A stretch of DNA of 48,553 bases from an uncultured Prevotellaceae bacterium (GTDB taxonomy: Bacteria > Bacteroidota > Bacteroidia > Bacteroidales > Bacteroidaceae), in contig ONYA01000021.1 of assembly GCA_900321965.1 (NCBI GenBank), positions 1 to 48,553 on the forward strand, in the 5' to 3' direction. Below the pieces are notes generated by a model that was not told the DNA's origin, did no database searches, and worked only from the letters and a program-made list of their open reading frames with translations. The position numbers were made by a program, and so were the translations under genes. How positions within the stretch are numbered: the stretch's first letter is position 1; every line of letters starts with the position of its first letter. Positions 2,515-42,050 of the stretch are shown piece by piece.

Positions 2515-2822
2515 TATGGAACAAACAGGCCGAGACAGAGTGGAGAAAAAGATTACTCTACGGATTAAACGAGTTCGGCAAGACGACAGCCATCCATTAT
2601 GTGCAAAGAACAAACCACATCATCGGTATCATTAGAAAACACCCTATGATGGGACCTATCGAACCGTTAATCAAGGGAAAGAAGCATCAGTATCGTCATT
2701 TCCGTCTTATCGGTCCGCTGAAGCTCATCTATTATTACATTGAGAGTTCGGACACCATCAGAATCGTAGATGTCTGGGATTCTCGTCGCGAGCCGAAAAA
2801 GCTCTCAAAAAGGATATCATAG
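2502..2822 (+). CDS. RelE/ParE-family toxin
   Basis: A 106-residue basic protein with the fold signature of the RelE/ParE superfamily: an N-terminal strand (MAKVIWNKQAETEWRK), two helices, then strands HFRLIGPLKLIYYYI and IRIVDVWDSRREPKKL with the typical late D-x-R/R-x-P pattern. It starts inside the last codons of the antitoxin gene. RelE members cut mRNA on the ribosome and ParE members poison gyrase; the sequence alone does not show which applies. The region after it (2823-3143) is a repeat-rich spacer. Confidence 0.8.
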   Translation: MAKVIWNKQAETEWRKRLLYGLNEFGKTTAIHYVQRTNHIIGIIRKHPMMGPIEPLIKGKKHQYRHFRLIGPLKLIYYYIESSDTIRIVDVWDSRREPKKLSKRIS

Positions 2823-3143
2823 TAAGTCACTCGACGCTTGCGGCACTTATTCGAGCCATTGTCTTATGTCTAAGGAATCGAGGCGCTCGGCGACGCAAGG
2901 AGACGCATTCTTCGCAAGCGAAGCGGCAAAGCCGAGCGGTCAAGAAAAAGGCAAGAATAAAGGAAGGCTAGGGCCGAGAAGAATTCCTATGTTCCGAAAT
3001 TCCTTAGAACATAAAAACTGTCGTTCTTGCGTCCCGATGGTAGCAAGCGCTACGCGATTACGAAAGAAAAAACAAAAAAAGTTGGTTTTTTGTTTTGTCC
3101 TTTGCTCACTTATTCGTATCTTTGCAAAAAATAATGTGAGGAC
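2823..3143. repeat. Gene-free spacer with inverted repeat and promoter cassette
   Basis: No credible gene. ttatgtctaaggaat near 2863 pairs with attccttagaacataa near 2999, forming a large imperfect inverted repeat around a GC-richer core (ggcgctcggcgacgcaagg). Bases from gttcttgcgtcccgatggta (about 3023) to 3124 repeat nearly exactly at 4239-4339, including the hairpin-plus-promoter cassette with TATCTTTG at 3117-3124, which would drive the MntA-HepT pair. A 126-codon open frame across the spacer (2770-3150) is only repeat translation. Confidence 0.55.
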
Positions 3144-3437
3144 ATGTTAGTACTTCAAGATTGCATACAGAAGCTACAGATGTTCAAGAGTGAATTCGGC
3201 AAGGAATTCGGAATCTTGAAATTAGGAATCTTCGGTTCAGTTGCACGACAGCAGAATCGTGAAGATAGTGATATTGACATTGTGGTGGAAGTAGAAAAGC
3301 CCACGCTAAGTTTGATGTACAAACTAAGGGAAATGCTAAAACGCCTGTTTAATGCAGAAGTTGATCTTGTCAGGTTCCGCGATTCTTTGCGTCCTTTGTT
3401 TAAGTCCAACATTCAAAGAGATGCCATCTATGTCTGA
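3144..3437 (+). CDS. MntA-like nucleotidyltransferase antitoxin
   Basis: A 97-residue minimal nucleotidyltransferase. GSVARQQNREDSDIDIVVEV contains GS-x10-D-x-D exactly, the family's catalytic signature, with the two aspartates expected to bind metal. In characterised MntA-HepT systems this enzyme adds AMP groups to a tyrosine of the HEPN toxin and so silences it. The start at 3144 follows the TATCTTTG promoter by about 20 bases and a gaggac ribosome-binding-like site. Its end overlaps the start of the HEPN gene, consistent with translational coupling. Core motifs appear intact and the length is normal. Confidence 0.88.
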   Translation: MLVLQDCIQKLQMFKSEFGKEFGILKLGIFGSVARQQNREDSDIDIVVEVEKPTLSLMYKLREMLKRLFNAEVDLVRFRDSLRPLFKSNIQRDAIYV

Positions 3438-3880: not shown

Positions 3881-4426
3881 ATACAGCGTCTCAATAATCC
3901 GTAATATCCATAATAAGTTCTGGTCCTTTTTCGGAAAAAAAATGAGAAAGAATGAGAAAGAATTATTTACAACAATTATAAAGAATACAAATTTCGCAAG
4001 CTCCGCTTGCCTTGAAGATAAAAGGAGATAGAAGGAGATAAAAGACATTACTTCACGCTCGAGCTTGCCAAGAATTGTTGAGATGAATTTTTTCTTATTG
4101 TTGCTAATTTCTTTCTAAAAACAAAAAAAGTTGGGTTTTTGTTTTGTTCTTTGCTCATTTATTTGTACCTTTGACTCCGTCTCGCTCGACGCTTGCGGCG
4201 CTTATTCGAGCCTTGCGAGTCTTAAGAAGATACTCGCGTTCTTGCGTCCCGATGGTAGCAAGCGCTACGCGATTACGAAAGAAAAAACAAAAAAAATCGA
4301 GTTTTTGTTTTGTTCTTTGCTCACTTATTCGTATCTTTGCACCAGATTTGCGGAAATAGTCCGCACTCGGTTCAATCGGGAACTAAATACAATACTTATT
4401 AATATACTAAATCAAAAGCAAAACGT
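3881..4426. repeat. Gene-free spacer; second copy of the long direct repeat
   Basis: After a tract of aatgagaaag units (about 3940) and a gaagata/ggagata tract (4014-4043), bases 4073-4233 repeat 119-280 almost exactly, including a variant promoter TACCTTTG (4166-4173). This is fused to bases 4239-4339, which repeat 3023-3124. The final promoter is TTTG at 4309-4312 with TATCTTTG at 4332-4339, about 90 bases before the secreted protein gene. So the toxin-antitoxin island 429-3819 is bracketed by long direct repeats. Confidence 0.7.
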
Positions 4427-12439: not shown

Positions 12440-13621
12440 TTACAAGTGTTTCTTAAAGAACTGCAAGACACGTTCCTGCGCTTTCAGCGGACAGCTGTGG
12501 GGGATGTCCCACAGCTCGGTCTCGAGTTTGTCATCAGCTCCCTGCGAGCGCCAGACGTCGTGCATGATAGCAAAAGCCTTCTCGACGCCCGCCACGGGGA
12601 ACAGCTTGTCTTGCGACCCGTTGATGAAGAGCATCGGCTTGGGACAGGCCATGCTGGCCACATGCGGGTAGTCAAGCCAGCGGCGCAGACCGGGGAAACA
12701 GTTGGCAAAGCCACCATTCTCCGTGCGTTTGTACTTGAACGACATCTGTTCGTCGGTGGTTGTGAGCCAGCAGATGGCAGCGCCGACCTTGATGCGGTCG
12801 CTCAAGGCCGAGAGCATCCACGCGCGGTAAGCGCCCATCGAACAGCCCGTACAGCCTATGCGCTGCGGGTCTACCTCGGGCATCTGGGCCAGGAATTCCG
12901 TACCACTGATGTCGTCGTAGGTCATATAGGCACTGAGGTCGATGCCGTACATCATCATGTTGCCGGCAATCATGTCGTAGCGGTCGCGCCGAGGACCTTC
13001 CTCCTGACCGCGCTCACCCCACATCGGGGCATCGGCCGAGAATACCACGTAGCCGTGACGGGCCAGATAGTCGCCGAAGAACTGGCCTTCATAGAGCTGG
13101 GCGGCCCACTCGTCGGCATCCTTGATGACCGTGGAGTCCTCGCAGGCTAACGGCCGTATCATCTTCTCCTTGCCTATAAAGAGGTGGGCACCGTGGTCGT
13201 GCAGCACGTTAACAGCGGGGAACGGCCCCTTGCCGTCGGGAATGAGCACGTAGGCCGGCACGGTGTAGTAGCGCGACAGGCGGATCTCAATCTTCCGTGC
13301 CGTATAGCCGTCGCGCTGCTCCTCAAATAAAAGTGAAGAGTGAAGAGTTGAGTGTTGAGAGTTGAGTGTTGAGTGTTGAGTGTTGGGGGCAGGGGGAGGT
13401 ATGAGCATGCAGTCGAAGACCTTCTGACGGGCTGCTTGACGCCATGCGTCGAAGTCCTTGATGGGACTGTTGCCCCACGCCATCGGGAATGTCAAGTCCT
13501 TGATGAGCGAGTCGGCATAGACAGGCAGGTTGCGCTTGAACTCATATTTCGCCCGCTTCTGTGCCGTAGCACAGAAGCTGAAGGCCAGAAGCCAAACGCC
13601 AAGAGCCAGGAGCCTTCTCAT
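12440..13621 (-). CDS. Secreted alpha/beta hydrolase (dienelactone hydrolase/acetyl xylan esterase-like)
   Basis: A 393-residue protein with a signal peptide (MRRLLALGVWLLAFSFCATA) and an alpha/beta hydrolase fold. The nucleophile elbow is GCTGCSMGAYRAW (G-x-S-x-G, about residues 258-270), an oxyanion-type HDHGAH occurs near 142, a possible acid lies in INGSQDKLFPV (about 336) and a possible catalytic His in WDIPHSCP near 375. An esterase acting on glycans or xenobiotics is likely; the substrate is unknown. Residues about 78-97 (TQHSTLNSQHSTLHSS) are encoded by a heptamer tandem repeat (13331-13386) inserted in the N-terminal part. The start overlaps the MerR stop by 4 bases (ATGA). Confidence 0.8.
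   Translation of the reverse strand: MRRLLALGVWLLAFSFCATAQKRAKYEFKRNLPVYADSLIKDLTFPMAWGNSPIKDFDAWRQAARQKVFDCMLIPPPAPNTQHSTLNSQHSTLHSSLLFEEQRDGYTARKIEIRLSRYYTVPAYVLIPDGKGPFPAVNVLHDHGAHLFIGKEKMIRPLACEDSTVIKDADEWAAQLYEGQFFGDYLARHGYVVFSADAPMWGERGQEEGPRRDRYDMIAGNMMMYGIDLSAYMTYDDISGTEFLAQMPEVDPQRIGCTGCSMGAYRAWMLSALSDRIKVGAAICWLTTTDEQMSFKYKRTENGGFANCFPGLRRWLDYPHVASMACPKPMLFINGSQDKLFPVAGVEKAFAIMHDVWRSQGADDKLETELWDIPHSCPLKAQERVLQFFKKHL
13331..13386. repeat. In-frame 7-base tandem tract in the hydrolase gene
   Basis: The tract consists of agtgaag, then ttgagtg/ttgagag units, nearly all 7 bases long. Read on the coding strand it gives a 7-residue period (TQHSTLN, SQHSTLH). It introduces no stop or frameshift. 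Confidence 0.75.
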
Positions 13622-15159: not shown

Positions 15160-17877
15160 ATGATGACAGCAAAAGAGATCCGCGACTCGTTCAAACAGTT
15201 CTTCGAGTCGAAACAGCACGCCATTGTGCCGTCAGCACCGATGGTCATTAAGGATGACCCCACGCTGATGTTCACCAATGCCGGTATGAACCAGTGGAAG
15301 GATATTATATTAGGTACGCGTGACCCGGAGCCGCGCCGCCGTGCCGACACGCAGAAGTGCCTGCGCGTCAGCGGTAAGCACAACGACTTGGAAGAGGTGG
15401 GACACGACACGTACCACCACACAATGTTCGAGATGCTGGGCAACTGGTCGTTTGGTGACTACTTCAAGGAGGGTGCCATCGACATGGCCTGGGAGTACCT
15501 GGTCGACGTGCTGAAACTGAATCCCGAGGATCTCTACGTCACCGTCTTCGAGGGCGACGCCTCGGAGGGTCTGGAGCGCGACGACGAGGCTGCCGGCTAC
15601 TGGCTGAAGCACGTTCCCGCCGACCACATCATCAACGGCAACAAGCACGACAACTTCTGGGAGATGGGCGACACGGGACCCTGCGGTCCCTGTTCGGAGA
15701 TCCACGTCGACTCGCGTCCCGCTGAAGAGAAGAAAAACGGCAAGCCCGGCCGTGAGCTGGTGAACCAGGACGACCCGCAGGTCATCGAAATCTGGAACCT
15801 CGTCTTCATGCAGTACAACCGCAAGGCCGACGGTTCGCTGGAAAAGCTGTCGATGAACGTCATCGACACGGGTATGGGCTTCGAGCGTCTGGTGCGTATG
15901 CTGCAGGGTAAGCACTCTAACTACGACACCGACATCTTCCAGCCCATCATCAGGATGGAAGAGCAGATCAGCGGTCTGAAATACGAAGCCCCCCTGTCGT
16001 CCCCCGAGGGGGACACAAGTGTCCTGCCGCAAGGTAATGAAGCCCCCTCGGGGGCCGTAGGGGGGGCTGACGACATGGTGTCCATTGCCATGCGCGTCTG
16101 CGCCGACCACCTGCGTGCCGTTGCCTTCTCGATTGCCGACGGTCAGCTGCCGTCGAACGCCAAGGCCGGCTACGTCATCCGCCGCATCCTGCGCCGTGCC
16201 GTCCGCTACGCCTACACGTTCCTCGGACAGAAGGAGGCTTTCCTCTACAAACTGCTGCCCACACTCGTCGAGGAGATGGGCGACGCCTTCCCCGAACTGA
16301 AGGCCCAGCAGACGCTCATCGCCAAGGTGATGAAGGAGGAGGAGGACTCGTTCCTGCGTACCCTCGACAAGGGTATCTCACTGCTCGACAAGGCTATGGA
16401 GCAACTGAAGGCTGAGAACAAGACAGAGCTGAGCGGCGAACAGGCTTTCCGCCTCTTCGATACCTACGGATTCCCCCTCGACCTGACAGAGCTTATCTGC
16501 CGCGAGAACGGCTTCACGGTCAACGAGGAGCAGTTCAACGTGGAGATGCAGAAGCAGAAGGAACGCGCCCGCAATGCCGCCGCCGTCGAGAATAGCGACT
16601 GGGTCACTGTGGCCGACGGTCTGCCTGTCGGCACCGAACAGCAGTTCGTAGGTTACGACTACACCGAATACACCTGCCACATCCTGCGCTACCGCAAGGT
16701 GACCCAGAAGAAGAACGAGTTCTATGAGCTCGTCCTCGACTATACACCGTTCTACGGCGAGATGGGCGGTCAGGTGGGCGACCAGGGCGTACTCGTCTCT
16801 GAGAATGAGACCATCCAGGTCATCGACTCTAAGCGCGAGAACGGACAGACCGTCCATATCGTGAAGCAGCTGCCGAAAGACCCGACAGCTGAGTTCATGG
16901 CCTGCGTCGACACCGACAAGCGCGATGCCTCGGCTGCCAACCACACGGCAACCCACCTGCTGGACTACGCCCTGAAACAGGTGCTCGGCGACCACGTCGA
17001 GCAGAAGGGCTCGTTTGTCTCGCCTGACACGCTGCGCTTCGACTTCTCACACTTCGAGAAGGTCAGCGACGAGCAGCTGCGCCAGGTGGAGCGCATAGTG
17101 AACGACATGATCCGTCAGGACCTGCCCCGCGACGAGCATCGCGACATGCCGATGGAGGAGGCCAAGAAGTTAGGTGCCATAGCACTCTTCGGCGAGAAGT
17201 ACGGCGACAAGGTGCGCGTCATGCGCTTCGGTCCGTCGTGCGAACTCTGTGGTGGTATCCACGCCACGTCGACCGGCCGTATCGGTTTCTTCAAGATTGT
17301 CTCCGAAAGTTCTGTGGCTGCCGGCATCCGCCGTATCGAGGCCAAGACAGGCCGCGAGTGCGAGGAGCTGCTCTACCACATCGAGGACACGCTGAAGGCC
17401 ATCAAGTCGTTCTTCGTGGGTGCCAAGGACCTGGAAGCCGTCATCCGCAAGTACATCGAGGAGCACGACACGATGAAGAAGGAGATAGAGTCGTTCCAGG
17501 CTCAGGCCGTGGAGCGCTACGCCAAGCAGCTGGTGGAGAAGGCCCGCGACATCAATGGCGTGAAGGTTGTCACGGCCGTGATGCCCTTGGAGCCTGCCGC
17601 CGCCAAGGACTTAGCCTTCAAGATCCGTGCCGCCGTCGAGGGTACGTTGCTCTGCGTCCTCGGCACGAAGCATCAGGACAAACCCCAGCTCACCATCATG
17701 ATGAGTGACGACATGGTCAGCGACCACGGTCTGAACGCCGGACAGATGGTGCGCGAGGCCGCCAAGCTCATTCAGGGCGGCGGCGGCGGACAGCCCCACT
17801 TCGCCCAGGCTGGCGGTAAGAATGCCGACGGCCTCAGCGCTGCCGTCGACAAGGTCATAGAACTGGCAAAACTGTAA
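15160..17877 (+). CDS. alaS: Alanyl-tRNA synthetase
   Basis: A 905-residue class II synthetase that charges tRNA-Ala and edits mischarged Ser or Gly. Seen in order: the catalytic domain from [17 protein letters not shown] with [11 protein letters not shown], motif 2 region [30 protein letters not shown] and motif 3 DTGMGFERL; the tRNA-recognition domain with [19 protein letters not shown]; the editing domain with zinc ligands NHTATHLL and CELCGGIHA; and the C-Ala domain ending [16 protein letters not shown]. Residues about 276-304, between the catalytic and tRNA domains, are an extra loop encoded by a GC-rich palindrome (15985-16070). An ATG at 15163 is an equally possible start. Confidence 0.97.
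15985..16070. repeat. In-frame GC-rich palindromic insertion in alaS
   Basis: agccccccct near the left end pairs with agggggggct at the right end, with inner pairs cccccgaggggg and acacaagtgt. It encodes [15 protein letters not shown] and [12 protein letters not shown] at residues about 276-304. Related AlaS proteins normally have a short loop here, leading straight to [11 protein letters not shown]. The composition (C and G runs) is unlike the flanks. Confidence 0.75.
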
Positions 17878-17892
17878 ATACAGGATAAGCAG

Positions 17893-17961
17893 AAAGACAA
17901 CCTAAACAACAAAGGCAACAGTCTGCAGACACAAGTTGTCTTAGTTGTATAGGTTGTCTTT
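17893..17961. terminator. Inverted repeat between alaS and the phosphopantetheinyl transferase
   Basis: aaagacaacctaaacaac... pairs with ...gttgtataggttgtcttt over about 27 bases with few mismatches around a 13-base loop, followed by tctt. It could terminate alaS. The arms consist of loosely repeated acaac units, like other palindromes in this window. Confidence 0.6.
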
Positions 17962-17972
17962 CTTAATCATAT

Positions 17973-19637: not shown

Positions 19638-20045
19638 ATGGATTACAAGATTATCGACATCGAGGGCGTAGGCGAGGTGTACGCTGAGAAACTCATCGCA
19701 GCAGGTATCAACAAGGTCAGCGAACTGTTGGAGAAGTGCGCCGCCCCCAAGGGACGTAAGGAACTGGCTGAGGCTACGGGCATCTCTGAGAAGCTCATCC
19801 TGAAGTGGACGAACCATGCCGACCTGTTCCGCATCAACGGCGTTGGCCCGCAGTTTGCTGAGCTGCTTGAGGCTGCTGGCGTCGACACCGTCAAGGAGTT
19901 CCGCCACCGCGTAGCCGAGAACCTGCATCCGAAGCTGGCTGAGGTGAACGAGCAGAAGAACATCTGCAACCGCGTGCCCGTCGTGAGCGAGATTCAGAAG
20001 ATGATTGACCAGGCCAAGGAGCTTGAGCCGAAAGTCACTTACTAA
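19638..20045 (+). CDS. DUF4332 helix-hairpin-helix protein
   Basis: A 135-residue soluble protein made of two helix-hairpin-helix-like units: IEGVGEVYAEKLIAAGI (about residues 8-24) and INGVGPQFAELLEAAGV (about 66-82). These match the DUF4332 family, whose HhH units resemble DNA-binding modules, though no function is established. The length is typical. It has its own promoter and ends convergently with the helicase gene, overlapping by 4 bases. Confidence 0.8.
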   Translation: MDYKIIDIEGVGEVYAEKLIAAGINKVSELLEKCAAPKGRKELAEATGISEKLILKWTNHADLFRINGVGPQFAELLEAAGVDTVKEFRHRVAENLHPKLAEVNEQKNICNRVPVVSEIQKMIDQAKELEPKVTY

Positions 20046-21505
20046 TCCTCTTCCACCTGTGTTCCTGGCCAATTGACCAGGAACAATTTTTCTGTAGCGC
20101 GCGTAAAAGCGGTATAGAGCCAGTGCAGATAGTCGCTGTTCAGCATGTCGTCGGTCATATAGCCCTGGTCGATATAGACGTGCTGCCACTGTCCGCCCTG
20201 TGCCTTATGGCAGGTGACGGCGTAGGCAAACTTCACCTGCAGGGCGTTATAGTAACGGTCTTCCTTGATTTTCTTCATGCGGTCGGCCTTCAGGGGAATG
20301 TCGGCATAATCTTCTTGCACCCGTTCATAAAGCTGCTGTTGCTGCTCACGCGTCAGGGCGGGTGCTTCTGCCGTCAGCGTGTCGAGCAGGGTCGTGGCCG
20401 TCAGTTCGTAGTCGTCGTAGTCGGGGAAGGTCATCGTCACCTCGGCAAAGCGGAACCCATACTGCTCATGAATGTTACGCACCCGCTGCACAACAGCCAC
20501 GTCGCCATTGGCAATGAACTCAATCCCGCTGCTATTCTCCTTATTCTTTACTCCTTCCTCCTTACTCCAATAATAATTATTCTTCACAATCATCAGGCGG
20601 TCGCCGCGACACAACTCGTCCTCGCGGTCGAGAACGGTATTGCGGATGCCCTGATTATAGATATTGGCCCGCTTGTTGCTGCGGGTGATGACGATGGTGT
20701 CGTCAGCACCCGCACGACTGTAGCTGGTGGCCAACGACTCTATCAACTCGTCGCCGGGAACAATCCGTATGTCGTCAAAGTTGCGGAGACGAATCTGCGG
20801 CATCAGTATTCTCTCTCCTCTCTCCTCTCTCCTCTCTCCTCTAAATTCTCTCCTCTCTCCTCTAAATTCTCTCCCCTCTCCTCTAATTCTCGTCGCATTA
20901 AACAGGATGCCCGACTCCTGCGACTGTCGCAGCACCTCGTTCAGGTCGGCCTCAAAAACGGTCATGCCATAGCAACGCAGCACGGAGGCCTGCAGCGCCG
21001 GACTCTCCTGCTCGCCAACAGGCGGCAGCTGGGCACGGTCGCCAATAAGCAACAGACGGCAGTTGCGGTCGTTATAGACGAAACGCATCAGGTCGTCGAG
21101 CAACGGGGTATCGCCATTGGCTATCATCGATGCCTCGTCAACGATGAACAGCGTATCGTGGGCACCATTGAAGTTCAAGTCGAAACCACCCTCCAAGGAC
21201 TTCTGACGGTAGATACGGCGATGGATGGTGTAGGCCGGACAGCCAGCATAGAGCGAGAACACTTTGGCAGCACGACCTGTAGGCGCCATCAGCACCAGTT
21301 TCTGCTTCAGCGCCATCATACCACGGACGATAGCAGCGGCCAACGTCGTCTTGCCCGTGCCTGCCGACCCGCGCAATACCATGATAGCCTGACTGTCGCG
21401 ACAGGTCATAAAGTCGGCAAACACACGCACCGCCTCAGCCTGTTCCGCCGTCGGCGTCAGACGAAATGACTGTAAAATGCGATATTTTAGCTCATCGCCT
21501 ATCAT
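20042..21505 (-). CDS. RecD-like SF1B DNA helicase
   Basis: A 487-residue superfamily 1 helicase of the RecD/Dda type. Motifs: Q-like LTPTAEQAEAV; Walker A LRGSAGTGKTTLAAAIV (about residues 44-60); motif II LFIVDEASMI (about 118); motif III LLLIGDRAQLPPVG (about 153); motif V/VI VTCHKAQGGQWQHVYID and LHWLYTAFTRATEKL near the C-terminus. It would unwind DNA 5' to 3' in repair. Two low-complexity tracts sit between domains: RGEGREFRGERREFRGERRE (about 205-232; 20809-20890) and SKEEGVKNKENSS (about 311-324; 20533-20572). Its promoter TATCTTTG lies at minus strand 21544-21537, back to back with that of DUF3822. Confidence 0.88.
   Translation of the reverse strand: MIGDELKYRILQSFRLTPTAEQAEAVRVFADFMTCRDSQAIMVLRGSAGTGKTTLAAAIVRGMMALKQKLVLMAPTGRAAKVFSLYAGCPAYTIHRRIYRQKSLEGGFDLNFNGAHDTLFIVDEASMIANGDTPLLDDLMRFVYNDRNCRLLLIGDRAQLPPVGEQESPALQASVLRCYGMTVFEADLNEVLRQSQESGILFNATRIRGEGREFRGERREFRGERREERGERILMPQIRLRNFDDIRIVPGDELIESLATSYSRAGADDTIVITRSNKRANIYNQGIRNTVLDREDELCRGDRLMIVKNNYYWSKEEGVKNKENSSGIEFIANGDVAVVQRVRNIHEQYGFRFAEVTMTFPDYDDYELTATTLLDTLTAEAPALTREQQQQLYERVQEDYADIPLKADRMKKIKEDRYYNALQVKFAYAVTCHKAQGGQWQHVYIDQGYMTDDMLNSDYLHWLYTAFTRATEKLFLVNWPGTQVEED
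20809..20890. repeat. In-frame ctctcct heptamer tract in the helicase gene
   Basis: About 11 units of ctctcct with ctaaatt variants. On the coding strand this reads as alternating RGERREE/RGERREF. The tract contains no stop in the frame used. The same unit recurs in queE at 24470-24508. Confidence 0.8.
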
Positions 21506-24247: not shown

Positions 24248-24955
24248 CTATTTGAAACCTACAAGTTTGTGTGTCTGCAATGAGAGCCGCCAGTGGGGAT
24301 GCTCCTTGATATACTCCACACACCTATTTATTATACGCGCGTTACGCTCGGCATCGCCCGTGTCGCAGGGTTGGAGATAGAGATGTCGAGGTGCGAGGTG
24401 CGAGATACAAGGTACGAGATATGCTTCAGGATCAGTATTCTCGTCAAACACCACTTTCAGTTCATCAGGTACTCTCTCTCCTCTCTCCTCTCTCCTCTCT
24501 CCTCTAAGTTTCGGCGACACCGTCAGCCAGTCGAGGTTCTGAGGTGCTGGACGGGTGCCGTTGCTCTCCATAGCCACCTCAAAGCCGTGCTGGTGAAGCA
24601 GGTCAACGAACGCCTCGTCCACCTGCAGCGTCGGTTCGCCACCGGTCAGCACGACTAATAGGTTTCGAGGTACGAGGTGCGAGGTGCGAGGTGCGAGGTG
24701 CGAGGTACGAGGTGCGAGATTACTACCTATCGAAGAATCAGCCTCCATGGTATTCTCGTACCTCGTACCTCGAACCTCGTACCTCGAAATCTCGGTCAAG
24801 ATCTCGTCGTCCGTCATTTCGCGGTACGTGTCGAACTCCGTATCGCAGAACGGACAACGGAGGTTACAACCGGCAAAGCGGACGAACACTGCTGCCCGTC
24901 CTGTGTTATAGCCCTCACCCTGCAGCGAATAGAAGATGTCGTTAATCCTTCTCAT
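24248..24955 (-). CDS. queE: 7-carboxy-7-deazaguanine synthase QueE, with repeat insertions
   Basis: A 235-residue radical-SAM enzyme of queuosine synthesis, turning carboxytetrahydropterin into 7-carboxy-7-deazaguanine. It shows the N-terminal YSLQGEGYNTGRAAVFVRF, the iron-sulfur motif CNLRCPFC (C-x3-C-x2-C, about residues 32-39), VVLTGGEPTLQ (about 100) and a C-terminal LSLQTHKLVGF. Three tracts encode extra residues: about 55-97 (the element at 24665-24792), about 149-162 (24470-24508) and about 178-190 (24387-24421). Each falls between conserved strands. The ATG at 24955 overlaps queD by 14 bases; a TTG nine bases earlier is unlikely. Confidence 0.92.
   Translation of the reverse strand: MRRINDIFYSLQGEGYNTGRAAVFVRFAGCNLRCPFCDTEFDTYREMTDDEILTEISRYEVRGTRYENTMEADSSIGSNLAPRTSHLAPRTSHLVPRNLLVVLTGGEPTLQVDEAFVDLLHQHGFEVAMESNGTRPAPQNLDWLTVSPKLRGERREERGERVPDELKVVFDENTDPEAYLVPCISHLAPRHLYLQPCDTGDAERNARIINRCVEYIKEHPHWRLSLQTHKLVGFK
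24387..24421. repeat. Short gaggtgc heptamer tract in queE
   Basis: cgaggtgcgaggtgcgagat followed by acaaggtacgagat: about five 7-base units of the family seen at 24665-24792 but without loop or second arm. On the coding strand it gives LVPCISHLAPRHL. Confidence 0.75.
24470..24508. repeat. ctctcct heptamer tract in queE
   Basis: Five or more units of ctctcct ending in ctaagtt, the same unit as in the helicase gene at 20809-20890. It encodes KLRGERREERGERV. Confidence 0.75.
24665..24792. repeat. In-frame palindromic heptamer element 1 (in queE)
   Basis: The left arm (24665-24719) has about eight gaggtgc/gaggtac units. The loop (about 24720-24752) contains agaatcagcctcc. The right arm (24753-24788) has units of ctcgtac. 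The arms are reverse complements. Coding strand: EVRGTRYEN, then MEADSS, then NLAPRTSHLAPRTSHLVPR. The element sits just before the strand carrying TGGEP. Confidence 0.85.
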
Positions 24956-25274
24956 ACGTTGCAATATTTCCCTCGCTCTCCTGAACGGTAGCCTTATAGC
25001 AGTGGGGCACGCGCTCCACGCACCAGCGGGCCAAGTTCTCGGCCGTCGGATTGAAGGGCAGCACCTCGTTCAGAATGCGGTGGTCCAGCGGTTCCTTGAC
25101 AAGCCGCTTGATCTCGCTGAAGTCAATCACCATACCGTTACGGTCAAGCTTCTCCGAACGGCAGTAAATCATAATCATCCAGTTATGACCGTGTACGCGG
25201 GTACACTTGCTCTCATAGTCCAACTCCAGACTATGACAAGCCGAGATTTCTATTTTCTTTTGTACGTAATACAT
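24942..25274 (-). CDS. queD: 6-carboxy-5,6,7,8-tetrahydropterin synthase QueD
   Basis: A 110-residue enzyme that makes carboxytetrahydropterin from dihydroneopterin triphosphate, the step before QueE. Zinc-binding histidines are visible in SACHSL (about residue 14) and RVHGHNW (about 28-34). The catalytic region includes DRNGMVIDFSEIK and PLDHRILNE, and PTAENLARW is typical of the family. It starts 7 bases after dnaG stops and overlaps queE, so it is clearly in the same transcript. Unlike its neighbours it contains no repeat insertion; a 110-residue enzyme packed around its active site may tolerate none. Confidence 0.93.
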   Translation of the reverse strand: MYYVQKKIEISACHSLELDYESKCTRVHGHNWMIMIYCRSEKLDRNGMVIDFSEIKRLVKEPLDHRILNEVLPFNPTAENLARWCVERVPHCYKATVQESEGNIATYEKD

Positions 25275-25281
25275 ATCCCTA

Positions 25282-27381
25282 TTATTTCATCACATCACTT
25301 CCCAACTTCTTAGCTAACGCATCGCGCAGTTCCTGCGTCTCCTTATATTCTTGCATCAGTTTCATGACGTGGTCCATGTCGTTCGACGCCTGACGCATGG
25401 CTAACTGTATCTGTTTCAGTCGCTGGCTGACCAAATCCATCCGCAAGTCCATCACCAAATGGACGACCCGCTGACGAAGAGCTCCCTCACGCGGCTCCAC
25501 GGCAAAGCGTCCTCCTAACTGATGACGATCGACAGCCAACTGCATAGCCACCTTACTCACCTCAATATCAGGGTGGTTCATAAAGTAAGACTCAGCCTTG
25601 AAGCCCTCATCCCCACTATGCGCCACAGCCTCGGCCAGTATCTGGTTATAGAGCGGGTTCGAGAACTGGATATTATCCTGCCCTAAATCGTAGTCGACAT
25701 ACTGCGCCACGTTGAAATCGATGAACTGACCATCGTCAGTCTCCACGTTTTCGTAGATAATCTCTTCACCGTGACGGACGACCTCGCGGATAAGTAGGGC
25801 CTCGACCGTGTTTTCTCGAGATGCGAGGTGCGAGATACGAGGTGCGAGATTACTCTCTGTCGTAGAATCAGCCTCCAAGCTATTTTCGGGCCTCGGTCCT
25901 CGGACCTCAGAGCTCGAATGCTCCTCCTCGTTACTCGTTCCTCCTTTCTCCTTACTCTTATCTTCAATATCCTTCTTGATGAAGTTATTCATCGACGTCA
26001 GCAACGTCTGTTCCTTCAGTCCGAGACGCGAAGACAGGTCGCTGAGATAGGTTGAGCGCAGGATAGCATCGGGGATGACGGAGATGCTCTTGACAATGCC
26101 ACTAATAGCTTCAGAGCGCTTCACAGGGTCGCTGACGCCCTCCACAGTCAGATGCGTCTTGAATGAGATGAAGTCCTCCTGATGTTCCTCAATATACCGT
26201 TTTAGTTCCTCAGTAGAGTGCTTACGGGCAAAGGAGTCCGGGTCGTCACCATCGGGCAGCAGCAAGACCTTCACGTTCATGCCTTCGGCCAGCAGCATAT
26301 CCGTACCACGCATAGCAGCGTGAATACCAGCCTCGTCGCCGTCGTAGAGTAGCGTGATGTTCTGAGTGAAGCGGCGCAGCATCTTGATTTGGTAGATGCT
26401 GAGTGCCGTACCAGAGTTGGCCACCACGTTCTCAACACCTGCCTGATGCATAGCGATGACGTCGGTATAGCCTTCGACCATAAACACGCGATCTTCTTTG
26501 ACGATGGCTTTCTTGGCCTGGTAGATGCCATAGAGCTCACGTTCCTTATGGTAGATATCGGAATCGGGCGAGTTGACGTATTTCTGCGCCACACCCTTCG
26601 TCCGCGAATCGAGCACACGTCCGCCGAAAGCCACCACCTTACCACTGACGTTCAGCCAGGGGAAGATGGCGCGGCCGGAGTAGCGGTCTACCAATCGAGG
26701 TGCGAGGTGCGAGGTGCGAGGTGCGAGATTACCTTCTTCCGTAGAATCAGCCTCCTTTCTATTCTCGTACCTCGTATCTCGTACCTCGTACCTCGAATTA
26801 TCTTTCTCGTTTCTCTCGAAGCACAGTCCCGTCTTCACCAAGAACTCGGCCTTATAGCCAGCCTTCTTGGCTGCCAAAGCCAGCGCATCACGTTTCTGCG
26901 GCGAGTAGCCCAACTGGAACTTCTCGATGATGTCGTCGCGGATGCCGCGGCTGCGGAAGTACTGCTTACCGATGGCGATGCCGTCAGGATCGTTCTTCAG
27001 CGTCTGATGGAACCAGTCCTTCGCCCACTCGTTAACAATGAACATCGACTCGCGCTCGTTCTGCTCCTGACGCTCCTCGTCAGTCAGTTCTTTCTCGACA
27101 ATCTCGATATTGTACTTCTTAGCCAACCACCGCAGTGCCTCGGGATAGGTAATCTGCTCGTGCTCCATCAGGAAGCCGGCAGGCGTACCGCCCTTGCCGC
27201 AGACGAAACAGTGGCAGATGTTCTTGGCAGGCGACACCATGAACGACGGATTACGGTCGTCGTGGAAAGGACAAAGGCCCTTGTAGTTCACGCCACTCTT
27301 ACGGAGTGTCACGAACTCACCGACCACGTCGACAATCTGCGCAGCGTCGATAATCTTGTCTACTGTCGCCCTGTCAATCAT
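25282..27381 (-). CDS. dnaG: DNA primase DnaG, with two repeat insertions
   Basis: A 699-residue primase that lays RNA primers at the replication fork. The zinc finger shows CPFHDDRNPSF and CHCFVCGKGG (about residues 38-64). The polymerase core follows with IFPWLNVSGKVVAFGGRVLD (about 240), and TOPRIM motifs are FMVEGYTDVIAMHQAG (about 300), LLYDGDEAGIHA and LLPDGDDPDSF. The C-terminal part is the helicase-binding domain. Two in-frame palindromic elements add residues about 195-229 (26694-26797), before the conserved DRYSGRAIFP, and about 488-522 (25815-25918), in the linker. The ATG lies one base after the small peptide stop, so translation is probably coupled to it. Confidence 0.95.
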   Translation of the reverse strand: MIDRATVDKIIDAAQIVDVVGEFVTLRKSGVNYKGLCPFHDDRNPSFMVSPAKNICHCFVCGKGGTPAGFLMEHEQITYPEALRWLAKKYNIEIVEKELTDEERQEQNERESMFIVNEWAKDWFHQTLKNDPDGIAIGKQYFRSRGIRDDIIEKFQLGYSPQKRDALALAAKKAGYKAEFLVKTGLCFERNEKDNSRYEVRDTRYENRKEADSTEEGNLAPRTSHLAPRLVDRYSGRAIFPWLNVSGKVVAFGGRVLDSRTKGVAQKYVNSPDSDIYHKERELYGIYQAKKAIVKEDRVFMVEGYTDVIAMHQAGVENVVANSGTALSIYQIKMLRRFTQNITLLYDGDEAGIHAAMRGTDMLLAEGMNVKVLLLPDGDDPDSFARKHSTEELKRYIEEHQEDFISFKTHLTVEGVSDPVKRSEAISGIVKSISVIPDAILRSTYLSDLSSRLGLKEQTLLTSMNNFIKKDIEDKSKEKGGTSNEEEHSSSEVRGPRPENSLEADSTTESNLAPRISHLASRENTVEALLIREVVRHGEEIIYENVETDDGQFIDFNVAQYVDYDLGQDNIQFSNPLYNQILAEAVAHSGDEGFKAESYFMNHPDIEVSKVAMQLAVDRHQLGGRFAVEPREGALRQRVVHLVMDLRMDLVSQRLKQIQLAMRQASNDMDHVMKLMQEYKETQELRDALAKKLGSDVMK
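25815..25918. repeat. In-frame palindromic heptamer element 2 (dnaG linker)
   Basis: Arms of tcgagatgcgaggtgcgaga and ctcggtcctcggacctcaga types flank a loop with gtagaatcagcctcc. Coding strand: EVRGPRPEN, LEADSTTES, NLAPRISHLASR. The right arm has diverged (ggcctcggtcct), suggesting an older copy. A separate low-complexity SKEKGGTSNEEE stretch adjoins it. Confidence 0.82.
26694..26797. repeat. In-frame palindromic heptamer element 3 (dnaG core)
   Basis: The left arm is cgaggtgc repeated, the loop contains ccgtagaatcagcctcc and the right arm is ctcgtacctcgtatctcgta. Coding strand: SRYEVRDTRYEN, KEADSTEEG, NLAPRTSHLAPR. It sits in the catalytic part of primase, ahead of DRYSGRAIFP. Confidence 0.85.
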
Positions 27382-27382
27382 A

Positions 27383-27571
27383 TCAATTCGTCAGGTTGAA
27401 TAGCGGGTTATCACTCCACAGCAGGTTATCGGACGAGAACAGGTCTTCGTCGTCACGGCTACCCACCGTCGGGTCACTCTGGTCACCGGCGTTAGGTCCT
27501 GATCCAGCCAGTATCACCACTTTATCTATCATTACCCACTCTGTAGCGGGCTTCATATATTGCTTCTTCAT
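27383..27571 (-). CDS. Small MKK-Y-P peptide after the C10 protease
   Basis: A 62-residue peptide starting MKKQYMKPATEW, with a short hydrophobic VVILAGSG (about residues 18-25) and an acidic tail rich in Asp, Ser and Asn (DDEDLFSSDN). It lies 17 bases after the C10 protease gene behind AGGAGGA and 7 bases before its ATG. Its TGA stop is one base from the dnaG start. It has the same plan as 6859-7011 and 42098-42286. It has no recognised domain; the N-terminus is too short and polar for a signal peptide. Function unknown. Confidence 0.75.
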   Translation of the reverse strand: MKKQYMKPATEWVMIDKVVILAGSGPNAGDQSDPTVGSRDDEDLFSSDNLLWSDNPLFNLTN

Positions 27572-27588
27572 AATGCGTTCCTCCTACT

Positions 27589-30165
27589 CTACTTGATGAT
27601 GACTTTCTTTCCGTCCTTGATGTACAGTCCCTTCTTCGGCTGAGCCACGCGACGGCCCTGCAGGTCAAGGACCTCACCGTTCACTATTCCCTCTTCATTA
27701 TTCATTAGCGAAGCGCCAATGCCCGTCGCGCCGTCGTCTTCGGAACCGATAATCAACGCTCCTAAGCTGCTAAGACCTACGGCTTCGAAATAAGCGCGGA
27801 AGGGATCTACTGTGGTAGAGCTATTTACAAACTGAGTACCTGCAGCGTTTAGTACATAACGGTTGGTAACAGATGTACCAGGCAGAGAGCCTACAAATCT
27901 GAATTTGCTACGCATAGTGGCTGTTCCTGTGGAGGGCAAAACCTGAACGCTGCTGCCTTCGAAGGTAATATCCTTATTCGTCAGATCCCAGGTTGCTCCA
28001 TAACTGTTGCCTGGCACGGCAATGATGTATGGGGTATTGGCGGCCATCTGAGTAGCGTAACCGAAGTTAACGGTATTACCACTCTCGCTGCTAAATTCTT
28101 TCAGCCAGAAGTTCTTACCCGTATCACTGCCGGAGTGGAACCAGTCGATCACCTTGCTACCCTGCTTCACCGTCGATACGTTGAAGGGCACGACGATGGT
28201 GCTCCAACCGCCGGTGCCGTTGGCAGCTGTCGTGAACTGACGGGTATAGGTAGCCTTGGTGGCCGTGAACTGTTTCGGAGCATAGAAACCTTGACCGTCG
28301 GTCAGCGTCAGCGTAGCTGCCGTACCGTTCTGTACCACATTCTTTCCTGTCAGCCCTGAAGGTACGCTGCTGCCGACGAAGTAAAGCGTATTCGGGTTGC
28401 TGTTCGGTGTTACTGAGGTCACGACACTAACCTGCGAAACGTCGAGTGCAAGTGCATTTTCAGGTGTTGTGACATCAGAAGTGTTATACACAACCGTTTC
28501 TGTTCCGTCAGCTGCATAGGTTTTGATTGCTCCGATATTTTCAAACGACATTATCTGTCCATTAGAACTAACTGTGACCTTCACATAAGTTTCATCGGAA
28601 CCAATGCACTTCCGCCACGTATCTGTGCCGTTTTTGCGACAGACGAGAACTAACTTATATTCTCCATCTGACAGTTTCTCACCAAATCCAAAACTAAAAT
28701 CGCCATAACGTCTTATCCCATTAGGATAATCAATGGTGGATGGTGTATCAAGCAGCTTCACAAAAGAATCATTTTTATAAAGGGCTAATCCCCAGTCAAA
28801 GTCAAGACTCCATCCAGTGTTGTTATTAAGAGAGTAATTCAAGCACTGAGAATATATAGTCCCACTTCCAAACGGATAATAAAAATAATCGTCATAGCCA
28901 TAAGCAATCCATTCACATGAAGGATAATAACACGAACATTGAGTTACCGTTAGACAGGCTTCGTCCGACAAACTAACACCATCATCCACAGGGCTGACGT
29001 TAATCATAGCCATCTGATTGTAATTATAGCCGTCGCCAGGATTGCCGCCACCGATACCCTGATCGTCGGGGTTCATTGCTGAAAGACGGAAACTGCCGTC
29101 ACTCGTGCTTCCCCAACCCCAGTTGACGTAGAAATAATCATCATGGTCATAACCGTCTACCACGAAAGCATGTCCACCACTACCCGACTGTCCGCTATAA
29201 AGCACAGGGCCATTGGTAGACAGTTCGGTATAGATAGCATCTACCCATTCATCATAACTATACTTATTGCGGTAGATAGACTTCGCATCGGGATCATAGC
29301 CGAAGTAGTTTATCAGTGCTGAGGTTGCAGCCTCTTGAGAAGCTGAAGAGCCACCAGATGATGCCGAGCCATACTGCATTTTTGCACCAGCACCGATATA
29401 TTCCATCAGACGAGCCACCTCATCACGAGCATCATCAGTAGTTAGCGTTGGGTCAATTTTCGTCCAATTTATTGTTCGAGCCGGCTTCTCTGGCATCGCA
29501 GTATATGGTACACCACTGAAATACCAATAGTATTGTGTTGTATTTTGATAACTTGGAATATTCGTCGTGGGTGTCGATGCAATACTATGCTTAGTGGCCT
29601 GATAATACATCACCTGAGCCGTGGCCGTAGCTACGCAGCCTGTGACAGCATCAATGGAACCACTAAGGTTCATCTTCGGACAATAAGTATTATAAGGTGT
29701 ACCCTGATCCCACTTCGTCTTCAGCATCGCAGGAATAGCTGTCTTCGACTTCTTCATACCGCCGCGACTGGCAGCCACAGACTTACTCCTGACGCCATGC
29801 TCCTGCATCCACTGTATCTGGTCGGCATAACCCTGGAGCCACGACTTGAGGTTCACGGGCATATTCTCGGCTGAGATCTCACCTTTGTCAGCATAACCTA
29901 ACACAAGGTCACCAGTACAGTCGTCGCCGCTGACAATGACGAAGCCTTCATGCTGGCCAACGTTAAACACATACAGCTGGTCGGTGACGACGCCTTCCTT
30001 CAGCTGGAGCTTTACCTGTTGCATACCACGGGCAGCAGCCACATTGCCACTTCGCCCGCTGAGGAACTGCAGCGCCTTCTGACGTGCGACATCCTGGGTT
30101 ATGGGAGCAGCCATCAGTGCAATGCCGAAAAACAGCCCCACAAAGGTCATCAATTGTCTTTTCAT
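27589..30165 (-). CDS. Secreted C10 cysteine protease (streptopain/interpain-like)
   Basis: An 858-residue exported protease: signal peptide (MKRQLMTFVGLFFGIALMAA), a Spi-type prodomain (about residues 20-125, with GFVIVSGDDCTGDLVLGY), and a C10 catalytic domain with the nucleophile in AVTGCVATATAQVMYY (about 175-190) and the histidine in SGGHAFVVDGYDHDDYFYVN (about 335-354). Beta-rich domains and a tail (LQGRRVAQPKKGLYI then GKKVIIK) of the sorting type follow. Streptopain and interpain A degrade host proteins, including immune factors. An ATG two codons earlier (30171) is possible. It lies 18-24 bases after the acetylesterase gene in the same run. Confidence 0.88.
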   Translation of the reverse strand: MKRQLMTFVGLFFGIALMAAPITQDVARQKALQFLSGRSGNVAAARGMQQVKLQLKEGVVTDQLYVFNVGQHEGFVIVSGDDCTGDLVLGYADKGEISAENMPVNLKSWLQGYADQIQWMQEHGVRSKSVAASRGGMKKSKTAIPAMLKTKWDQGTPYNTYCPKMNLSGSIDAVTGCVATATAQVMYYQATKHSIASTPTTNIPSYQNTTQYYWYFSGVPYTAMPEKPARTINWTKIDPTLTTDDARDEVARLMEYIGAGAKMQYGSASSGGSSASQEAATSALINYFGYDPDAKSIYRNKYSYDEWVDAIYTELSTNGPVLYSGQSGSGGHAFVVDGYDHDDYFYVNWGWGSTSDGSFRLSAMNPDDQGIGGGNPGDGYNYNQMAMINVSPVDDGVSLSDEACLTVTQCSCYYPSCEWIAYGYDDYFYYPFGSGTIYSQCLNYSLNNNTGWSLDFDWGLALYKNDSFVKLLDTPSTIDYPNGIRRYGDFSFGFGEKLSDGEYKLVLVCRKNGTDTWRKCIGSDETYVKVTVSSNGQIMSFENIGAIKTYAADGTETVVYNTSDVTTPENALALDVSQVSVVTSVTPNSNPNTLYFVGSSVPSGLTGKNVVQNGTAATLTLTDGQGFYAPKQFTATKATYTRQFTTAANGTGGWSTIVVPFNVSTVKQGSKVIDWFHSGSDTGKNFWLKEFSSESGNTVNFGYATQMAANTPYIIAVPGNSYGATWDLTNKDITFEGSSVQVLPSTGTATMRSKFRFVGSLPGTSVTNRYVLNAAGTQFVNSSTTVDPFRAYFEAVGLSSLGALIIGSEDDGATGIGASLMNNEEGIVNGEVLDLQGRRVAQPKKGLYIKDGKKVIIK

Positions 30166-30189
30166 AATCATTTATGTTTTTATTAGTGT

Positions 30190-31968
30190 TTATTTTTTCA
30201 GATACTTAGCTAACTCACTCTTATTCTGGCGCAGTCCCTTGGCAAACGACTGGGCGTTCATCTGGGCACCAGCCTTCGACGTGTGGGTATGGTCTTTCTT
30301 GAAGTACTTCGCGCCAGCCTTCGCCTTGATACGCTCTTCGGCAGCCTTGCGCTGTTCCTTATCGCTCATCTCCTTACTACTCAACGGCTTGCTAAACTTC
30401 TTGTCAAGGAAGTCGGCGCTGATGTTGTGAAGGTCAATGAACTCCACGCCCGTCTGCTCAACCACCTCGCGATACCATTTACCATACGAGCCGTCACGAC
30501 GTTCAATCTTGCCGCCAGGCCACTCGTTGCGCGGTGTCAGACTGACGAGGATGGGCGTGGCCCCCTTCTCGCGCACGTCGTCGATGAACTTACGGAGATA
30601 CCAGCCGAAGCTGTAGACCACCTCGTAGGTGCCGTTGTCCATCTTATAGACATGCAATGTATCCTTCGTGCCGGGGATGACACCACGGGCCTTCGCATCG
30701 GTGATGGGACAGATGTCGTTATGGCCGAACTGGATGGTCACGAAGTCGCCGGGCTGCAACGAGTTGTAGACCTTGTCCCACAGTCCCTCACGCAGGAACG
30801 AGCGGGTCGAGCGACCGGCACGGGCAGCGTTGACCAGCGTCACCTTCGACTCGTCGAAGACCGTAGCGGCCTGCGAGGCCCAGCCCCACATGCCATCCTC
30901 CTCTTTGTCGGCGTTCTTCACTGTTGAGTCGCCGGTGAAGAAGACAGTTGGTTTCTTTCGAGGTGCGAGGTACGAGGTGCGAGGTGCGAGATTACCTTGC
31001 GCACCACTCATTTCCGCCTCCGAACTATTCTCGTACCTCGAATCTCGTACCTCGTACCTCGACAAGTCCACATTCACCATCATCGTCTGCAGCGGCTTCA
31101 GCAGCGGATTGAGACTCTCCCAGAGTCCTTCGGCGGCACTGCGGGCATTCATCTCAGCGCCAAACTTCGACGTATGAATCTTGTCGCCAAGGAAGTGGTA
31201 GTCCACCTTCCATGTGCTGTACGAGTCGAGCTTCTGACCGCTGCGCTCATTCAGGTCGACGAAAGGCACGCCCTCTGTGGCAGCGATGTAGGCCGCCCAT
31301 TCCGTCTGCGGTTTACGCACAATGCGTCCCTTGTCGTCGTAGGCATTACGCGGCGTCAGCGACATCAGGATAGGATTCGCACCCTTGGCACGGGTCTCAC
31401 TGATATAGCGGCGCAGGTAGTTGCCGTAGGAGTAAACAGTATCCTGCCGCTGTGTACGCTGGTTGAAACCTACATAGCACGTGTCGGGGTCGACACCGGG
31501 GATGACGGCACGGGCCCGCTTCGCATCGAAGAACTCGCCGTTGTCGTTATGACCGATGGAGACGATGACCCAGTCACCGGGCTTCAGGGCGTCACGCACT
31601 GCCGGCCACAAGTCGGTGTAGAACGTACGGGTGGACATGCCGCCAAGAGCCTGATTCTCCACCGTTATCTTCTTTGCATCGAAATACTGGTTAGCATAGT
31701 ATCCCCAACCCCACTGTCCGTTGGAGCCGTCGCCACGGGTGCCGTTGCGCATCGTCGAGTTGCCCACGAGGAACAAAACGGGGTTCGTGCCTACACGTGT
31801 TGTGCCGGGCTTAGGCCGCGACATCAGTGCCTTAGCTATCGAGTCAGGGGTGTTGTCCACCACCTTGTTCACATCTTCTATAGGGTCTGGAAGATTATCA
31901 AATCCTTGTGCCCCTACAGCTGTCGTCATCGCAGCCACAATTGCTATTGTCAGTAGTCGTTTCATCAT
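30190..31968 (-). CDS. Tandem SGNH/GDSL esterase (rhamnogalacturonan acetylesterase-like)
   Basis: A 592-residue exported protein with two complete SGNH hydrolase domains. After a signal peptide (MMKRLLTIAIVAAMTTAVGA), domain 1 (about residues 62-290) has FLVGNSTMRNG, SIGHNDNGEFF and DKIHTSKFGAEMNA; domain 2 (about 338-575) has FFTGDSTVKNA, QFGHNDICP and DHTHTSKAGAQMNAQS. The catalytic Ser sits in GNST/GDST and the Asp-x-x-His in each last block. Family members remove acetyl groups from pectin. The linker between domains carries a palindromic heptamer element (30958-31062). The promoter is TAACTTTG at minus strand 31995-31988. It is the first gene of a run reaching cardiolipin synthase. Confidence 0.85.
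   Translation of the reverse strand: MMKRLLTIAIVAAMTTAVGAQGFDNLPDPIEDVNKVVDNTPDSIAKALMSRPKPGTTRVGTNPVLFLVGNSTMRNGTRGDGSNGQWGWGYYANQYFDAKKITVENQALGGMSTRTFYTDLWPAVRDALKPGDWVIVSIGHNDNGEFFDAKRARAVIPGVDPDTCYVGFNQRTQRQDTVYSYGNYLRRYISETRAKGANPILMSLTPRNAYDDKGRIVRKPQTEWAAYIAATEGVPFVDLNERSGQKLDSYSTWKVDYHFLGDKIHTSKFGAEMNARSAAEGLWESLNPLLKPLQTMMVNVDLSRYEVRDSRYENSSEAEMSGAQGNLAPRTSYLAPRKKPTVFFTGDSTVKNADKEEDGMWGWASQAATVFDESKVTLVNAARAGRSTRSFLREGLWDKVYNSLQPGDFVTIQFGHNDICPITDAKARGVIPGTKDTLHVYKMDNGTYEVVYSFGWYLRKFIDDVREKGATPILVSLTPRNEWPGGKIERRDGSYGKWYREVVEQTGVEFIDLHNISADFLDKKFSKPLSSKEMSDKEQRKAAEERIKAKAGAKYFKKDHTHTSKAGAQMNAQSFAKGLRQNKSELAKYLKK
30958..31062. repeat. In-frame palindromic heptamer element 4 (esterase linker)
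   Basis: The left arm is tcgaggtgcgaggtacgagg type and the right arm tctcgtacctcgaatctcgt type. The loop has diverged (accactcatttccgcctccg) but keeps cgcctcc. Coding strand: SRYEVRDSRYEN, SEAEMSGAQG, NLAPRTSYLAPR, at residues about 302-337 between two folded domains. Confidence 0.85.
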
Positions 31969-36451: not shown

Positions 36452-36560
36452 TTGGAAACGAATGTGAATAATAAGAATAATTTATCCCACAAATAAGAAC
36501 GAATTAATATTATTCAAATTCGTGAACAGAATTATCCACATTATTCAGATTCGTTTCCAA
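36452..36560. repeat. Palindromic repeat between etfA and the dehydrogenase
   Basis: ttggaaacgaatgtgaataa... at 36452 pairs with ...ttattcagattcgtttccaa ending at 36560, about 30 bases with three or so mismatches. The interior holds more gaataat and attattc units that also pair. It would form a large hairpin in the transcript between two functionally linked genes. Confidence 0.75.
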
Positions 36561-41887: not shown

Positions 41888-41938
41888 TCGAGATACGAGG
41901 TTTCTATATTCGAGATACGAGGTGCGAGGTACGAGGTA
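41888..41938. repeat. Intergenic gaggtac heptamer tract
   Basis: cgagatacgagg, a break, then cgagatacgaggtgcgaggt: the same unit as the in-frame elements of queE, dnaG and the esterase, but here intergenic and lacking the conserved loop. Confidence 0.75.
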
Positions 41939-41951
41939 TGTAAACGTAACG

Positions 41952-42050
41952 GCCGCTCGTAAAAAAATATAAGCGTCTCGTAAAAAAATATAAGCCGCTC
42001 GTGAAAAAATATAAGCCGCTCATGAAAACGTCACGGCCGCTCGTACTGAA
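41952..42050. repeat. 21-base tandem array
   Basis: Units of gccgctcgtaaaaaaatataa (41952-41972), gcgtctcg... (41973-41993), gccgctcgtg... (41994-42014), a diverged unit with acgtcacg (42015-42035) and a partial last copy. The period is 21, three times seven. cgtaacggccgctcgt at the start is echoed by cgtcacggccgctcgt at the end. Confidence 0.8.

Follow-up and report, generated by a model that had tools for sequence, protein, structure and literature searches.

A 48,553-nucleotide stretch of an uncultured Prevotellaceae genome (contig ONYA01000021.1 of assembly GCA_900321965.1; hereafter the window) contains four palindromes of 104–128 nt inside protein-coding sequence: one in queE, two in dnaG and one in an esterase-like open reading frame (ORF) (Table 1). 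These are probably coding palindromic insertions that behave like Rickettsia palindromic elements (RPEs) but are built from seven-base units. On our best reading, the seven-base build is what is new, while the behavior is already known from RPEs.

The four elements share one plan, in which an arm of GAGGTGC, GAGGTAC or GAGATAC units is followed by a spacer and then by a reverse-complement arm. All are free of stop codons and read in a common frame and orientation on the minus strand, and their positions, arms and spacers proved to be as described in the first-pass annotation, a reading of the window made without database searches. The spacer core given there, GTAGAATCAGCCTCC, is exact in two elements and diverged in the fourth, as had been said, but differs at one base in the first. 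Folded as RNA, elements 1 to 4 gave z-scores of −8.7, −1.8, −6.5 and −5.7 relative to shuffled sequences, and we regard the dnaG-linker copy (element 2) as decayed because its score is only −1.8 while the other three fold strongly. In a total of 952,788 bases (the window together with 80 related loci), we found 62 hairpins with arms of at least 20 nt, compared with 0 in one block-shuffled control; 41 of the 62 lie in stop-free frames of at least 200 amino acids. Rfam searches of the window and six loci returned nothing at gathering score.

Further copies are dispersed, mostly in frame, through the genome to which the window belongs (G000; 92 contigs, rated 79% complete). A 24-mer pattern of GAGRTRC units with one mismatch allowed gave 41 + 34 overlapping matches (reversed pattern, 0), which grouped into 26 sites, 23 of them in stop-free frames (shortest, 158 amino acids). 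The other three read as intergenic, although one of them (contig C74) lies in a stop-free frame that is continuous with the following gene, ahead of that gene's likely start. Host genes include those for MurA, RNase R and 5-formyltetrahydrofolate cyclo-ligase (above the NCBIfam cut-off), HolB and an RsmF-like methyltransferase (under it), and a sulfatase, an MFS transporter, an MMPL protein and a MetH activation domain (named by Pfam). A second unit type, GAGAGAG, occurs at 11 sites (12 exact matches), every one in a stop-free frame of at least 273 amino acids, with PrmC and dihydroorotase among the hosts; the reversed-pattern control is uninformative for this unit, whose reversal gives an identical array. 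For both types combined, 34 of 37 sites are in frames versus an expected 0.70 (p = 0.0015), an expectation that supposes two thirds of gene insertions to be purged and takes its coding density (0.876) from the window alone. Neither unit contains a stop codon in any of the six frames and both are therefore able to persist within genes; seven not being a multiple of three, the three frames of each strand share one peptide cycle. Both strands are used, giving unrelated peptides (EVRGTRC versus APRTSHL; GERREER versus LSPLSSL). The uniform orientation of the four window copies thus does not extend to the whole genome, where six of seven palindromes read EN..GNL and one is reversed, with varying spacers.

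Orthologous sites in relatives differ in occupancy while keeping the reading frame. A site without the element exists at the dnaG loop of the sister locus L143, which is 96 nt shorter than the window between flanks about 95% identical; arm tips remain there. This is the only cleanly measurable case and corresponds to 32 residues, the lower value of the 32–43 extra residues proposed earlier. On the coding strand, the loop reads TTCGCGACTTGTA in L143 and TTCGAGG...CACCTCGATTGGTA in the window, with TCGCGA representing both arm tips; since the element is also present in L142 and left as a remnant in L147, the L143 site looks like an in-frame deletion. L143 also carries element 2. Element 1 is 21 nt shorter in L143 and L146 than in the window, and at element 4 the window is 78 nt longer than L143, L146 and L147. 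Among 77 loci with anchors (3 of 80 were dropped), the dnaG loop measured at most 33 nt in 42 and was longer in 35, of which 14 contain a strong hairpin, drawn from several unrelated arm families. The RNase R gene of G000 exceeds its orthologues in G022 and G007 by 21 nt, and MurA of relatives has different arrays at the same loop.

Orthologous-site comparisons, here and below among the matches listed, numbered 159, of which 151 were coding. Unique non-zero coding length differences were multiples of three in 101 of 102 cases, and in the single exception (L405 versus L336) the anchors overlap arrays and the reciprocal comparison gives −27. Multiples of seven accounted for 29 of the 102, versus 14.6 expected (p = 1.6e-4), p values being indicative only because comparisons share genomes and some are reciprocal. 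The intergenic non-zero differences were −6, 22, 28, −22, −28 and 49 (22 and −22 being one pair taken both ways); five of these six are not multiples of three and three are multiples of seven. Supporting the same picture, all 22 distinct GAGAATA...TAATCTC spacers in frames of at least 200 amino acids were multiples of three (30, 33, 36, 42, 45 or 60 nt), and three in shorter frames measured 42, 43 and 41 nt.

The palindrome is real, but it turned out to be one form among seven-base arrays, half-elements and single arrays with interchangeable unit types. The conserved strand PDELKVVFDE of queE lies between two loops, and in 39 records (17 of 56 ORFs lacked anchors and were dropped, several with short unexpanded loops) loop 1 scored a mean of 16.2 against the reverse complement of its own loop 2, compared with 8.0 (sd 0.64) for permuted partners (p = 1e-4, the lowest value attainable with 10,000 permutations). 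Pairing exceeded the 99th percentile of base-shuffled controls in 20 of the 39, and irregular units are mirrored between the arms in L167 (66 nt), L207 (53 nt) and L197 (105 nt). Both loops hold GAGRTRC in L147 and GAGAGAG in L144; arm sequence varies between species and tends to complementarity within one. Arms likewise flank conserved host codons in MetH of G066 (L120); these codons, LSGL among them, align with the solved methionine synthase 4ccz, which we take to be the human enzyme. Insertion of a finished palindrome is no explanation for the arms in MetH or in queE of other species. At HolB, G000 has the TATTCTC half of an element that is whole in G444 (flanks 99/96% identical, 90 nt). 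GAGRTRC and GAGAGAG replaced each other at orthologous sites in 19 of the 159 comparisons, about seven distinct sites; L387 and L417 have equal unit number and similar junctions, and the other switches involve different lengths or opposite orientation. We take this as replacement of whole arrays and not as stepwise change.

Of 150 genomes sampled from the genus, 10 carried the GAGRTRC pattern, and order-wide 3 of 295 did, both counts including G000; the pattern is also in all five genomes of close relatives, one of which (G447) shares coordinates with G066 of the genus sample. Nine other genomes yielded 57 array clusters among the matches listed, which are thus part of those genomes' sites, and 42 clusters lie in stop-free frames of at least 200 amino acids. 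In two of these nine genomes, G055 and G100, intergenic copies form the interior of a miniature inverted-repeat transposable element (MITE) with terminal repeats and the ends AGTAAY(N4)AAAAAATAAsTTGGTA (target duplication judged by eye), an end pattern present in 23 of the 150 genomes. The MITE family of L252–L271 has conserved ends and highly diverse interiors, ranging from nearly empty to long structured inserts (61 to 339 bp where both ends were found).

Our proposed explanation starts from an element built as (GAGNNNN)n arm, GAGAATA, spacer, TATTCTC or TAATCTC, and reverse-complement arm, with one-armed half-elements and single arrays probably belonging to the same system. Slippage would alter arrays by whole units, and replication template switching, or conversion between arrays, would copy one arm into the other and could also swap one unit type for another; purifying selection would then retain in-frame versions in loops, and the inserts would be translated. 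The arm behavior fits template switching of the sort described in RNA genes (PMC8794818) and considered for mitochondrial genes of nematomorphs (PMC6649704), or conversion between arrays. The weakest step is first entry into genes, where a MITE may seed the palindrome, a suggestion prompted by the two genomes in which an intergenic MITE encloses this palindrome. A bolder version, on which we are tentative and lean slightly toward doubt, is that Prevotella harbors self-perpetuating intragenic DNA whose stop-free seven-base arrays enter conserved genes, set up a mirror arm by inverted copying across conserved host codons and are overwritten in place by other unit types. If true, this would be a coding element that spreads through copying during replication or repair, with no transposase of its own.

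Several observations weigh against the explanation of coding, RPE-like insertions. The window queE loops do not pair, loop 1 being GAGAGAG and loop 2 GAGRTRC; more widely, 19 of the 39 queE pairs stayed at or below the 99th percentile of shuffled controls, and the own partner ranked best in only 10 of 39 rows. The complementarity of queE arms could also be explained by selection on RNA. Longer dnaG loops had no strong hairpin in 21 of 35 loci, and L143 probably lost its dnaG-loop element, as opposed to being a site that was never filled. The MITE end pattern was not found in G000 at up to 2 mismatches, the in-gene copies have no MITE ends, and no mobilizing enzyme was found, the autonomous partner of the MITE not having been searched for.

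If the hairpins were retained because the structure that they form in mRNA or DNA is functional, for instance in attenuation or the pausing of translation, arm complementarity would reflect selection on pairing. This would account for queE arms that tend to be complementary though their sequence differs between species, and for the strong folding of three of the four window elements. Near relatives nevertheless do without an element at orthologous positions, half-elements and single arrays occur frequently, the window queE arms are unpaired, and unit type changes array-wide, which stepwise compensation does not readily produce; we therefore consider this explanation unlikely. Selection on the inserted peptides themselves, for example as flexible surface loops, agrees with the expansion of the same loops across many species, but we judge it very improbable: near relatives manage without inserts, and protein-level selection was rejected because the DNA is used on both strands and so encodes unrelated peptides.

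REPINs, like MITEs, are small non-autonomous inverted repeats, and elements of this kind mobilized by a REP-associated tyrosine transposase (RAYT, Y1 type) would make the single arrays equivalent to singlets of repetitive extragenic palindromes (REPs). Inverted doublets with a spacer, the half-element and a Y1 transposase gene on G000 contig C45, with an array cluster some 1.1 kb away, speak for this idea. However, Y1_Tnp matches (E ≤ 0.001) were found in 6 of 8 array-bearing versus 10 of 20 other genomes (array-bearing G014 and G034 lay outside the search), with no match in either genome with MITE-borne GAGRTRC copies, both of which are incomplete, and the palindromes beside the G000 gene have another sequence. 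Since Y1_Tnp presence does not track the arrays, RAYT is not supported as the mover and we hold this alternative to be quite unlikely. The MITE was also rejected as a direct vehicle of the in-gene copies, its end pattern being absent from G000. Finally, an artifact of metagenome-bin assembly or contamination might be suspected from the fragmentation and incompleteness of the window genome, but the inserts keep the reading frame and arrays occur in independent assemblies and in the one-contig genome G116; it was rejected on the last of these grounds and strikes us as extremely improbable.

Coding palindromic insertion of seven-base units, the explanation that we prefer, also bears on the host proteins and their annotation. 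In AlphaFold models of QueE and DnaG, the first queE insert (68–98) and both dnaG inserts (195–226 for element 3 and 481–523 for element 2) fall in low-confidence stretches; the models, whose quality is middling (mean pLDDT 67.6 and 66.8), were used solely for these stretches and hold further low-confidence stretches beyond the inserts. In alignments of DnaG with PDB structures, the loop insert falls between matched blocks. Annotation is affected too, in that the queE match falls short of the cut-off for its family, for which the three inserts may be responsible.

Table 1 Host genes, palindromes and seven-base arrays in the window
Feature	Position	Strand	Setting	Remark
queE, 7-carboxy-7-deazaguanine synthase	24248..24964	-	hosts three inserts	best NCBIfam match 173.8 bits, cut-off 240
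dnaG, DNA primase	25282..27381	-	hosts two palindromes	TIGR01391 above NCBIfam cut-off
two-domain esterase-like ORF	30190..31968	-	hosts element 4	PaeY model, score far under cut-off
palindromic element 1	24665..24792	-	in frame, queE	left arm exceeds that of two sisters by 3 units
palindromic element 2	25815..25918	-	in frame, dnaG linker	arms decayed
palindromic element 3	26694..26797	-	in frame, dnaG loop, KTGLC to DRYSGR	
palindromic element 4	30958..31062	-	in frame, separates two similar halves of esterase-like ORF	
GAGRTRC array, no matching arm	24386..24421	-	queE loop 2	YLVPCISHLAPRH
GAGAGAG array	24472..24505	-	queE loop 1	RGERREERGER; opposite side of PDELKVVFDE from loop 2
decayed seven-base array	25925..25957	-	adjoins element 2	KSKEKGGTSNEEE
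GAGAGAG array	20811..20891	-	in frame, ORF 20042-21505	63 nt shorter in L147
TAAGGAG-type array	20532..20573	-	also in ORF 20042-21505	
CACTCAA-type array	13330..13391	-	in frame, ORF 12440-13621	
intergenic GAGRTRC array	41909..41938	+		served as non-coding comparison

The window contains other repeats. A fifth in-frame palindrome, GC-rich and of a different family (15987–16068, within ORF 15160–17877), is of a type that L154, L180 and L215 carry in their dnaG loop, and two more inverted repeats (36452–36560 and 17891–17963) lie outside long frames. GGCTTCT-like seven-base units occupy positions 13540–13620, the orthologous place at which sisters L386 and L414 hold a GAGRTRC palindrome, and a 21-nt tandem array (41952–42028) adjoins the intergenic GAGRTRC array. 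A 110-nt sequence is present in four copies (243–352, 2093–2202, 3017–3126 and 4232–4341; 65–94% identical to the reference copy), three between listed ORFs and one within ORF 2770–3150. Elsewhere in the genome, the Y1 (RAYT-like) transposase gene lies at L334:2836-3312 on contig C45.

Coding palindromes are best known from Rickettsia, and we know of no mechanism for them there. In several sequenced rumen Prevotella, sites occur in emptied, half-filled and complete states between flanks at least 95% identical, which makes the origin of in-gene palindromes testable, and the co-varying queE arms around conserved codons do the same for template switching as an arm-matching force. The system further bears on how much extra sequence conserved enzymes tolerate. 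In line with the view that the family was undescribed, our literature search, whose coverage mostly excluded subscription papers, found no relevant description of coding palindromes of this kind in Prevotella or Bacteroidetes, and the accessible portion of a paper on Porphyromonas repeats (PMC5771137) describes no such inserts.

The heptanucleotide tandem repeats of Xanthomonas, Nostoc and Beggiatoaceae are dispersed seven-base units, often with few copies per site (PMC4692102, PMC4679880), but are over-represented in non-coding DNA or lie mostly upstream of genes, whereas nearly all sites in the window genome are in frames. Unlike MITEs, the in-gene Prevotella copies have no terminal repeats, the MITE-borne copies in G055 and G100 being intergenic; unlike REPINs with their RAYTs, they show no RAYT association, and the palindromes flanking the Y1 gene differ from them in sequence. 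In template-switch hairpins (Monttinen and Loytynoja 2022; PMC8794818), both halves of a stem can arise, or be made to match again, in a single event. Those hairpins are described from RNA genes such as rRNA and microRNA and have mostly short stems, whereas the present ones are in coding genes with queE arms of up to 105 nt; the mirrored arms and unit switching seen here may reflect similar joint changes of both halves. In mitochondria of Nematomorpha, coding genes contain inverted repeats with arms that remain identical, and template switching has been discussed as a cause (PMC6649704). There the arms encode conserved protein, whereas the Prevotella arms code for variable loops and can enclose a conserved stretch.

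The closest parallel, as first suggested and now supported by behavior, is with RPEs, palindromes of about 150 bp in several families that occupy, in frame, non-structured segments of unrelated genes (PMC10969869, PMC2996958), and that are reported to lose identity over time (PMC6649704). Like RPEs, and with them the coding palindromes of Wolbachia and Methanocaldococcus, the Prevotella elements are hairpin palindromes in frame in unrelated protein genes, and they are of comparable size (104–128 nt), with weak folding in one of the four window copies. They differ in arms made of tandem seven-base arrays, in half-elements, in replacement of units in place and in belonging to a different phylum. 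We would thus liken them to RPEs by behavior, with a build of their own, and would not file them as members of that family.

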